Shown here: one piece after another, positions 15,884 to 20,949 of the stretch | Position numbering within the stretch: position 1 is the stretch's first letter | How the letters are laid out: each line of letters begins with the position of its first letter | Assembly (NCBI RefSeq): GCF_027587195.1 | Contig: NZ_JAPDDP010000005.1 | Coordinates: 1-64,000 of the forward strand | DNA: 64,000 nt | Source: Solirubrobacter phytolaccae | GTDB taxonomy: Bacteria > Actinomycetota > Thermoleophilia > Solirubrobacterales > Solirubrobacteraceae | Direction: 5' to 3' | Translations under genes and position numbers: made by a program | The notes under the pieces: model-generated | Told to the model about the DNA's origin: nothing | Database searches by the model: none | Seen by the model: the letters and a program-made list of their open reading frames with translations, nothing else

Positions 15884-18193
15884 ATGCAGATTCGGTCACT
15901 GGCGGGCGTCGCGCTCGCCGCCCTCGCGCTCGTCGCGGCGGCACCGGCGAGCGCGCAGGAACGCGTGCTCGTCGACGAGAGCTTCTCCGCCTCGACACTG
16001 CCCTCGGGGTGGACGAGCGTGCTCGGCGACTGGAAGGTCGTCGATGGTCGGTTGCAGGCGTCGACGGACGGCGCCCGCGCCCGGATCGCGTTCGGCCCCG
16101 CGGCGCCGACGGACTTCAAGCTCGAGGCCACGGTGCGCTTCGTGACGGTCACCAACGCGGCGCGCTGGCTGAACGTCGGCATCGACTACCACGCGGCGGC
16201 GGACTACGGCGCGGTGCTCGTCGCCCGCAGCGGCACGACCGCGAGCAACGGCCTGGAGCTCGCGCAGGCGGCGCAGGGCGGCAGCTACGCGTCCAGCCCG
16301 GTCGGCCCCGCGCCGACCGCGATCGGCACCGGGCAGGACCACCGGCTCGCGATCGAGGTGCACGGGACGCAGCTCGTCGTGAGCCTCGACGGCGCGACCG
16401 CGATGACCGCGACCAACCTCCGGCGCACGGGCGGCAGCTTCGGGTTCGTGATCAACAACTCGACGGTGCAGTTCGACGACGTCAAGGTCACCGAGCTCGC
16501 CGCGCAGCCGACCGCGCCCAGCGTCCCGCAGCAGCTCAAGCTCAGCGAGGTCGCCGACGCCGCCACGGTGACGTGGCAGGCGCCGCAGCAGGGCGGGCCG
16601 ATCAGCCACTACGAGGTCGCGGTCGGCGACGGCGCGTGGCAGCGTGAGGACGCGCTGAGCCATACGTTCACCGGCCTGTCCGACGGCGAGCAGGTGCTGA
16701 AGGTGCGCGCCGTCAACACCGCGGGCGTCGCCGGACCGGTCGCGTCGGTGCGCACGATGCGCGGCGCGCCGACCGTCAACGGCTTCAAGCTCCAGGTCAG
16801 CGGCGGTTCGTGGCCGAGCGGGCACGTGCAGGGCATCGCGGTCGACCCGGCCAAGGGCTTCATCTACTACTCGTTCACGAACCTGCTGGTCAAGACGGAC
16901 CTCGCCGGCAACGTCGTCGGGACGATGGGCGGCTTCACCGGCCACCTCGGCGACCTGGACTTCAACCCCGCCGACGGGCGCGTCTACGGCTCGCTCGAGT
17001 ACAAGGCAGCGAAGGCGTTCTACATCGCGATCTTCGACGTCGACAAGATCGACCGCGTCGGGATGAGCGCGCAGGGCTCGCCGCTGGTCTCCGCCGTGTA
17101 CCTGCCGGAGGTCGTCGAGGACTACACCGCCGACCTGGACGGCAACGGCGTCTTCGACGGTGACACGGCCAGCACGCCGGACCACCGCTACGGCTCCAGC
17201 GGCATCGACGGCGTCGCGTTCGGCCCGCGGTTCGGCTCGTCCGCCGGCACGTCCTACCTCACGGTCGCCTACGGCATCTACGCGAACACGTCGCGCACGG
17301 ACAACGACCACCAGGTGCTGCTGCAGTACGACCCGTCCGGCTGGCGCGCGTTCGAGCACCCGCTCGTGGAGTCGGCCCCGCACCGCGACGGCCCCGCCGA
17401 GCCCGACGGCAAGTTCTTCGTGTTCACCGGCAACACCCGCTACGGCGTCCAGAACCTCGAGTACGACCCGTGGCTGGAGCGCTGGTTCCTCGGCGTCTAC
17501 ACCGGCAGCAAGCCGCAGTTCCCGAACTACGGCCTGTTCGCGGTCGACGCGGCCGCGCAGCCCAAGCTGACGACGCTGCAGGGTCTGGGCAGCGAGCAGG
17601 GCCTGCTCGTCCCGCTCGCCGCCGACGGCCTCGAGCACACGGCGACCGGCATCCGCGGCTGGCGCCAGAAGGCCGACGTCGGCATCCAGTCGCTCGGCCA
17701 GGGGCTCTTCTACCTGGCGACGGACGGCAACGACGGCGGCAACGAGACCGCGACGCTGCGGCTGGAGCGCTGGACCGGCGACCCGGCCGACCCGTTCGCG
17801 CCGGTCACCGCGGGGGAGACCCGCGTCACCGCGCCCGCGACCGTCCGCGGAACCGTGCCCTCGACGCTCTCCCTGACGCTCGGCGGTCCCGCCACGTTCG
17901 CGCCGTTCACGCCCGGCGTGGAGCAGGACTACACCGCGAGCACGCTCGCGACGGTCACGTCCTCCGCCGGCGACGCGACGCTCAGCGTCACCAACCCCGG
18001 CCACCTGGCCAACGGCGCGTTCACGCTGGCGTCGCCGCTCGCGGTCGAGCTGTCGAAGGCGACCTGGAGTGCGCCCGTGAGCAACGACCGCGTGACGGTG
18101 ACGTTCAAGCAGCACATCGGCGCCAACGATCCGCTGCGCGCGGGGGCGTACGAGCGGACGGTCACGCTCACGCTGGCGACCACGACGCCGTAA
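15884..18193 (+). CDS. Secreted multidomain protein: ConA-like, FnIII, propeller-like and WxL-like domains
   Basis: The 769-residue protein has a Sec signal peptide ending PASAQ (residue 25), a laminin-G/ConA-like jelly roll (about 30-200, ending [11 protein letters not shown]), a fibronectin type III domain ([20 protein letters not shown] onward, 205-285), a propeller-like middle with [14 protein letters not shown] and [14 protein letters not shown], and a C-terminal all-beta region from about 645 ([11 protein letters not shown]... [20 protein letters not shown]) resembling the WxL surface-binding type seen in related actinobacteria. Likely exported and bound to the cell surface or a polymer. 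No catalytic motif is evident. TAGCGT lies 8 bases before the ATG. Confidence 0.8.
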
Positions 18194-19125: not shown

Positions 19126-20949
19126 ATGTCCTCCCGGTCCTGGATGACCGTGCCCGCGCTCGCCGCGGGTGTCCTGTTGCTCGCTGCTTCCGGCGCCTCC
19201 GCGTCGGTGCCGGACGCCCCCGAGCGGGCCACGATCTATGACGTTGTGCAGGAGGGCCTGACGCAGGATCAGGCCAAGCGCATCAACGCCACGCTCGGCG
19301 TCGAGGGCGCGCTGCAGCCCGACGGCAGCTTCATCTACGCGAGCCCGGAGTTCGCGAAGGTGCCGCAGAAGACGATCGCGGCGGGCAAGGACGAGTCCGG
19401 CCGCCCGACGACGTCGCAGGCGCTGGACACCGACGCGCTCAAGCGGCTGCGCCCGCTCCCGGCCGAGCGCGCGCTGGCGGGCGTGGACATCCTGCTCAAG
19501 CTCGACGGCGTCAAGGGCGACGTCGCCAAGGCCACGCCGACCGTCTCCCACACCGAGCTCGACCTCGCGGACGCCGAGGGTCGCCCGACCGCCAGCTACA
19601 AGCTCGACACGTCGGTGTCATTCGACCAGACCCTCGGCGGCCTGCCGCTCACCGGCCCGGGCGCCAAGCTCCGCGCGGCCTACGGCCCCGACGGCAAGCT
19701 CACCCAGCTCACGAGCGCGAGCCGTCAGCTCAAGCCGGGCGCGACCGTCGCGATCATCGCCGTCAAGGAGGCGATCGAGGGCTGCGCCGCGCTCTACGGG
19801 AAGGACGTCCGCCAGGACACGCCGACGCTCGGCTACCACGCCCCGGCCCTCGGCTCGGCCAAGCAGCTCTTCCCCGTCTACACCTGCAACCCGATCGGCG
19901 GCGACGGCCCGCAGGCCAACCTGCTCCTGCCCGCGGTGAAGGGCAGCGCGCCGGCGGCGACGTTCGAGGCGGCGCTCGGCGACGGCTCCGTCCGCGGCAT
20001 CGCCAAGGCGAGCGGCGGGACCGCCCCGTACCGCTTCAAGTGGTCCTCCTCGACGACCGTGATCGAGAAGAACGAAGGCGCCGCGGTCGACTACTTCCGC
20101 AACTCCCGTGACAAGCTCGTCGGCGAAGCGCTGACGCTCACCGTCACCGACGCCAACGGCCTCACCTCCACCGCGACCGCGACCTTCGCGGGCGACGGCT
20201 CCGTCAAGGGCGAGTCGATCCCGGGCGGCGGCGGCTTCGGCAAGCTCGCGATCGGGCCGGTCGACGTGGGTGTCGCGCAGACCGTCGACGAGTGGCAGTG
20301 CGCGCAGGACTCCGGCTACGGCTTCCGCAACGCGATGGCGTCCAAGGGCATCGCCACCGCGTTCGCCTGGCACGGCATGAGCGCCTGGGAGGAGGACTTC
20401 AAGAAGGTCTCCGCCGGCGGCACCGACACCACCTACGCCGACAACGTGGACGCCACCTGGTACACCGGCCACGGCAACCCGAACGGCTTCACGTTCAAGA
20501 ACAACGCCCATGACGACGGCGCCATCAACCCGTCCGACGCCGACTGGGGCAACGGCGACCTCGAGTGGCTGCAGCTCGAGTCCTGCCAGGTCCTGAAGGA
20601 CACCAACGGCAACATGGACCAGCTCGCCCGCTGGGGCGGCGCCATCAACGGCCTGCACATGATGAACGGCTTCCACACCAACGCGATCTGCGTCGACGGC
20701 GGCACCGGCCGCACGTTCGCCCAGCTGCTGTTTCCGCAGTTCGGCCTGCCGGCCTTCCCGGTCCGCAACGCCTGGGCGCTGATGGCCCAGATCAAGGAGC
20801 CGTCCGGCATCCGCTACCGCTCGATCGGCAACGTCGGCGCCGGCGGCGTCACCAACATCGGCGACTACTTCTGGGGCCAGGGCGCGACCGGGCCGGACAT
20901 CACCAAGGCCGCCCGCACCGGTATGTGGAGCCTGTCCGGCGTCAGCTGA
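19126..20949 (+). CDS. Secreted DUF6345-type protein with possible caspase-like His-Cys dyad
   Basis: The 607-residue protein has a signal peptide (about residues 1-30, ending SGASAS), a long N-terminal region, an Ig/PKD-like domain around 285-365 (ASGGTAPYRFKWSSS), and a C-terminal DUF6345-like domain. In the latter, ATWYTGHGNPNG gives His 449-Gly and LEWLQLESC gives Cys 487, each after a hydrophobic strand, the arrangement of clan CD cysteine peptidases (caspase, gingipain). The peptidase idea is inference. AAGGAG lies 9 bases before the ATG at 19126. Its stop abuts the convergent AraC gene without a gap. Confidence 0.8.
   Translation: MSSRSWMTVPALAAGVLLLAASGASASVPDAPERATIYDVVQEGLTQDQAKRINATLGVEGALQPDGSFIYASPEFAKVPQKTIAAGKDESGRPTTSQALDTDALKRLRPLPAERALAGVDILLKLDGVKGDVAKATPTVSHTELDLADAEGRPTASYKLDTSVSFDQTLGGLPLTGPGAKLRAAYGPDGKLTQLTSASRQLKPGATVAIIAVKEAIEGCAALYGKDVRQDTPTLGYHAPALGSAKQLFPVYTCNPIGGDGPQANLLLPAVKGSAPAATFEAALGDGSVRGIAKASGGTAPYRFKWSSSTTVIEKNEGAAVDYFRNSRDKLVGEALTLTVTDANGLTSTATATFAGDGSVKGESIPGGGGFGKLAIGPVDVGVAQTVDEWQCAQDSGYGFRNAMASKGIATAFAWHGMSAWEEDFKKVSAGGTDTTYADNVDATWYTGHGNPNGFTFKNNAHDDGAINPSDADWGNGDLEWLQLESCQVLKDTNGNMDQLARWGGAINGLHMMNGFHTNAICVDGGTGRTFAQLLFPQFGLPAFPVRNAWALMAQIKEPSGIRYRSIGNVGAGGVTNIGDYFWGQGATGPDITKAARTGMWSLSGVS

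Follow-up and report, generated by a model that had tools for sequence, protein, structure and literature searches.

The window analysed here is a stretch of 64,000 nucleotides of Solirubrobacter phytolaccae (assembly GCF_027587195.1, contig NZ_JAPDDP010000005.1, positions 1 to 64,000, forward strand), and the gene under study, at 19126..20949, encodes by open reading frame and translation a secreted protein of 607 amino acids carrying the domain DUF6345; this gene and all its features lie on the plus strand. Residues 1-29 (19126..19212) were read by eye as a signal peptide: they start basic, run on into the hydrophobic core LAAGVLLLAAS and carry ASA ahead of the mature part, and the confidence of the structural model (predicted local distance difference test, pLDDT) is below 50 there. 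The full-length model (pLDDT 77) then places an FTP/PepSY-like partner or pro-domain (PD; residues 30-273, 19213..19944), assigned by structure match and hhalign, a PKD/Ig-like domain (residues 274-358, 19945..20199), and a predicted catalytic domain of caspase/haemoglobinase fold (residues 379-607, 20260..20946), assigned by AlphaFold2, VIA-align and Pfam. Residues 392-604 of the latter are PF19872 (DUF6345), with an E of 4e-62 and 210 bits against a curated cut-off of 26.9. On conservation and model, the predicted catalytic base is His449 (codon 20470..20472), which follows the strand 443-447, and the predicted nucleophile is Cys487 (codon 20584..20586), which follows the strand 481-485.

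Generally, peptidases of clan CD are defined by a catalytic His after strand 3 and a catalytic Cys after strand 4 (PMC4357240). The first-pass annotation, made from the letters of the stretch, had proposed that this secreted protein may be a caspase- or gingipain-like cysteine peptidase, pointing to a TGHG and a LESC motif in the hydrophobic-strand context of a clan CD dyad. The translation bears out the motifs, which begin at residues 447 and 484 and set His449 and Cys487 38 residues apart, and the AlphaFold2 model agrees with the strand context. Built with 26 aligned sequences, the model of the catalytic domain has a pLDDT of 95.0, a predicted template modelling score (pTM) of 0.92 and six core strands, in which strand 3 (66-70 in the numbering of the domain model) leads to His72 and strand 4 (104-108) to Cys110; the placement of the dyad was judged from these strand positions, that is, from residue order. 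The six-stranded sheet has the clan CD topology in the prediction, and residues 1-209 of the model can be aligned with structures of the clan. The top VIA-align matches are SAVED-CHAT 8tl0 (Z 13.9) and the gingipain RgpB 4ief (Z 13.9, 3.1 A over 181), followed by legumain (13.1), caspase-8 (12.5), Kgp (12.3), a glycosylphosphatidylinositol (GPI) transamidase complex, 8imx (11.7), and separase (11.5), and each of the 50 matches listed is a structure from clan CD or a complex that includes such a structure. These scores are too close for a nearest clan CD family to be singled out. The top PDB rows of Foldseek are caspases, the caspase core is present in the predicted fold, and viral matches named caspase or clostripain concur. 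A clan CD fold with its dyad is well supported for DUF6345 by the predicted structure.

Conservation was examined in 66 DUF6345 domains of less than 70% identity, drawn from the window's phylum, Deinococcota, Chloroflexota, Planctomycetota, Thermodesulfobacteriota, Nitrospirota, Asgard archaea, Bathyarchaeota and methanogens. Only two columns are fully conserved, and they are the two residues named beforehand, His449 (64/64, with a gap in the other two rows) and Cys487 (66/66); the next best are an Asp ahead of strand 3 (97%) and one Gly (95%), while His511 is kept in 60 of the 66, with Arg in the rest. An aromatic residue (Phe/Tyr/Trp) is found at the end of strand 5 in 63/66, which counts in favour of a clan CD peptidase because it lies near the conserved S1 aromatic that the clan carries on loop 5 (PMC4357240). 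Apart from His511, the other His and Cys residues of the window protein are not conserved, and His416 (in WHG) and Cys392, weighed as catalytic candidates, were rejected on that ground. In clan CD the residue two before the Cys often forms part of S1; it is Glu in the window protein and Ala, Asp, His, Ser and others across the family. Between the two Solirubrobacter copies (S. taibaiensis being the other), the ratio of nonsynonymous to synonymous substitution rates in the catalytic part is 0.73 (NG86), an uninformative value, probably because third positions are very GC-rich.

By sequence, the domain stands apart from the known families. Searched against Pfam at E up to 10, the window domain matched PF19872 alone, with no match to C14, C25, C11, C13 or CHAT, and one of 26 homologues touches C25 (E 0.012). 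The NCBIfam scan of the window protein returned nothing significant and the PDB sequence search with it no match, and a PDB search with the DUF6345 domain profile retrieved only designed 'Pizza' repeat proteins, an artefact of their repeats that hinged on a short HG segment. DUF6345 therefore looks like a further, unrecognised clan CD family separate from C14 and C25, as it combines the clan CD fold with no sequence membership in C14, C25, C11, C13 or CHAT. The clan CD fold and dyad of the first-pass proposal are supported by the model; by sequence, the domain belongs to neither C14 (caspases) nor C25 (gingipains). With clan CD overall (C14, C13, C25, C11, separase C50, CHAT) the domain shares the core fold, the order of His and Cys after strands 3 and 4, a small residue ahead of the Cys and the aromatic conserved where strand 5 ends; it differs in having no recognisable sequence match to any family and in not strictly keeping a Gly after the His. 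The gingipains RgpB and Kgp are similar in being secreted, in the top structural score (RgpB 4ief) and in having a catalytic domain coupled to an N-terminal extension and an Ig-like domain. However, the Ig/PKD domain of the window protein precedes the peptidase, whereas it lies behind it in gingipains, the prodomain of the window protein is of the FTP/PepSY type, and there is no significant C25 profile match.

The Ig-like accessory domain of the first-pass annotation is genuine and of the PKD-like type, matching PKD1 of the protease PrtV (4l9d) with a Z of 9.4 and a root-mean-square deviation of 2.1 over 80 residues at 28% identity. An FTP/PepSY-like domain that is absent from that annotation (residues 30-273) is more telling as a neighbour; it is homologous to the FTP/PepSY propeptides of thermolysin/fungalysin-type proteases. 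Aligned by hhalign to FTP-PepSY propeptides from peptidases of the window's phylum, the extended partner profile scored 94.4% (E 9e-8), window-type sequences only 91.9% and trans copies only 83.6%, against 0.1% for reversed-sequence controls. The profile was extended iteratively, and as a check on drift, the unextended window-type alignment still finds the partner at 28 of 35 trans loci, with E down to 8e-29. In structure, the N-terminal domain of the model matches YycI (2o3o, Z 10.3) and 4k90_B, a chain of a fungalysin-type entry that we take to be the prodomain (Foldseek probability 0.93). Separately encoded copies show weak Pfam matches to FTP, YcdB/YcdC, YycI and YpeB-PepSY; the curated Pfam cut-offs for FTP/PepSY were not reached by the partner domain, and its profile gave no significant match to PDB sequences. 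Like the propeptides of M4 (thermolysin) and M36 (fungalysin) peptidases, the partner is exported and attached to or beside a peptidase, but its companion here is a cysteine peptidase of caspase fold, and it also occurs C-terminally or as a gene of its own, in some cases in several copies. YycI, YcdB-YcdC and YpeB share the fold or the weak Pfam matches, but their described roles are the regulation of a kinase or of spore and envelope processes, and none of them is described as accompanying a clan CD peptidase.

The pairing of the two domains is nearly constant across genomes: a partner was found for 78 out of 79 distinct DUF6345 genes, in the form of an N-terminal fusion (31), a C-terminal fusion (11) or the next gene downstream on the same strand (36), and the sole gene without it runs into a contig edge. 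Among the loci examined, none has a partner solely upstream of the DUF6345 gene, and the partner domain had 0 matches in 175 kb of control sequence from 47 loci of C14 and C25 peptidases. A search of the window's phylum (246 genomes) with the partner domain alone gave 12 matches, of which 10 are part of a DUF6345 gene or follow one immediately. Two partner-domain genes with no DUF6345 gene nearby were seen in this phylum at L192:5949-6944 and L171:1456-3363; in the latter the domain is matched weakly, by the C-terminal portion of a protein with a membrane helix and a beginning that resembles an ECF sigma factor. Most of the pairs examined have a hydrophobic segment for export or anchoring at the start of both proteins; for a few peptidases the start could not be located. 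In two genomes of the methanogen phylum, a single DUF6345 peptidase is followed by tandem partner genes, five at L183:6569-11534 and four at L177:2015-6010. Several of the L183 partners have nearly identical N-termini, which suggests recent duplication. On the tree of the peptidase domain, the arrangements cost 9 changes by parsimony and fewer are forced by well-supported branches; partner and peptidase were likely fused or separated repeatedly, a number that is not exactly countable.

Taken as a whole, the DUF6345 protein is probably a secreted clan CD cysteine peptidase that is chaperoned or inhibited, in cis or in trans, by the propeptide module. The Solirubrobacter protein would be exported, and His449 would serve as base for a nucleophilic attack by Cys487 on the peptide bond; as in caspases, legumain and gingipains, the two residues sit where adjacent strands end. 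The module of residues 30-273 would aid folding of the peptidase and/or block it until removed or released. In other lineages, the module lies behind the peptidase or is the separate secreted or membrane-anchored product of the next gene, and as a separate protein it could exert its control in trans. The PKD-like domain might be a spacer or a binding module. The computation itself gives the fold and its topology, the invariant dyad, the homology of the partner to FTP/PepSY and the near-universal pairing, whereas peptide cleavage, the zymogen role of the partner and extracellular action are what we infer for this protein. With less assurance, though more likely than not, it is one form of an undescribed and widely distributed extracellular proteolysis system of bacteria and archaea, in which a caspase-fold peptidase is combined with a dedicated thermolysin-type propeptide that has moved among N-terminal fusions, C-terminal fusions and separate or multiplied genes.

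Several observations weigh against the peptidase with its propeptide. Compared profile to profile with C14 and C25, the domain reaches at best 16% and 2%, probabilities too weak to prove homology, and C14 against C25 does no better (1%). The Foldseek E-values are marginal (best 1.1e-3), and the literature search found no paper mentioning DUF6345, nor an activity of any member. Known clan CD families keep a Gly after the catalytic His, whereas in DUF6345 this position is Gly in 50/64, as in the window protein (Gly450), Ala in 10, Ser in 3 and Thr in 1. Moreover, up to five tandem partner genes per peptidase are odd for a simple prodomain. It is chiefly these tandem genes, four and five behind one peptidase, that keep as a real rival the idea that the partner is a dedicated substrate or a YycI/YpeB-like sensor, cleaved by the peptidase to signal; the structure match to YycI, a histidine-kinase regulator, and the weak Pfam matches to YycI and YpeB-PepSY agree with it. 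We consider this unlikely, although a good deal less so than the other rivals: the sequence homology is instead to the FTP-PepSY propeptides, fusion on either side of the peptidase suggests a direct action on it, and fused forms such as that of the window would be their own substrate.

The same fold and dyad might also serve mainly transpeptidation or ligation, or self-cleavage, and so attach or release surface proteins, by analogy with the catalytic subunit of GPI transamidase, plant legumain ligases and the self-cleaving C80 domains. The GPI transamidase complex and legumain structures, including ligase-type legumain, are among the matches, and many lineages export the proteins or anchor them in the membrane. 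This is improbable, in that most clan CD members with the His-Cys dyad are endopeptidases (PMC4357240), and a dedicated substrate tail or sorting signal was not seen, though no search aimed at one was made. As a fold by itself reveals no function, a catalytically dead scaffold of the c-FLIP kind was weighed as well, but inactive homologues characteristically lose both His and Cys, which are the sole invariant residues here, and this reading is given very little credence. Least probable of all is a flavodoxin-like Rossmann domain that keeps His and Cys for metal or redox purposes, since the few WrbA/flavodiiron rows in Foldseek rank below the caspases and such proteins are absent among the 50 VIA-align matches listed.

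DUF6345 has a wide yet patchy distribution that spans bacteria and archaea, with Asgard lineages and methanogens among the latter. In the six phyla searched, genomes with PF19872 number 11/396, 33/247, 15/251, 6/246, 8/111 and 4/198, and one control genome, that of Methanosarcina acetivorans, a genetically tractable species, has the domain too. No DUF6345 relative was found in the viral-contig scan or in phage records, and the plasmid search yielded one, from Deinococcus. In the Asgard members L023 (Heimdallarchaeota) and L027 (Thorarchaeota), two hydrophobic segments lie between the PKD-like and the catalytic domains, an arrangement by which the partner and peptidase domains would both stay outside the cell. 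At L037:4343-5355 (Gracilibacteria), DUF6345 is split over two frames, for which a frameshift, an assembly error or the altered code of this group are all possible. A Caldilineaceae operon, L160:449-15759 (G403:C9), which speaks for the peptidase reading, encodes on one strand a C13 (legumain) domain protein, a CARDB protein, a PPC-domain protein in which C25 is matched weakly (GHS...GC), and then three fusions of DUF6345 and partner.

In the window, the gene is preceded by an SDR gene and followed by one for an AraC-type regulator. Its orthologue in Solirubrobacter taibaiensis, 65.6% identical, has the same neighbours, and this synteny points to no pathway. As well, the window carries at 15884-18193 a gene for a secreted protein of 769 amino acids, resembling 3-keto-disaccharide hydrolases and with an fn3 domain, which is missing at the S. 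taibaiensis site (L016 3958-3978), so that one lineage gained or lost it.

If the peptidase reading is true, an enzyme class and a catalytic dyad would be assigned to a domain that is so far listed without a function and occurs in bacteria, methanogens and Asgard archaea. A 2025 review counts eight families in clan CD (PMC12445089), to which DUF6345 would add a further one. It would also mean that the propeptides of secreted metallopeptidases have been recruited by caspase-fold peptidases as well, with control in trans included, and the separately encoded pairs would offer a simple two-protein system for the question of whether the partner acts as inhibitor or as chaperone.
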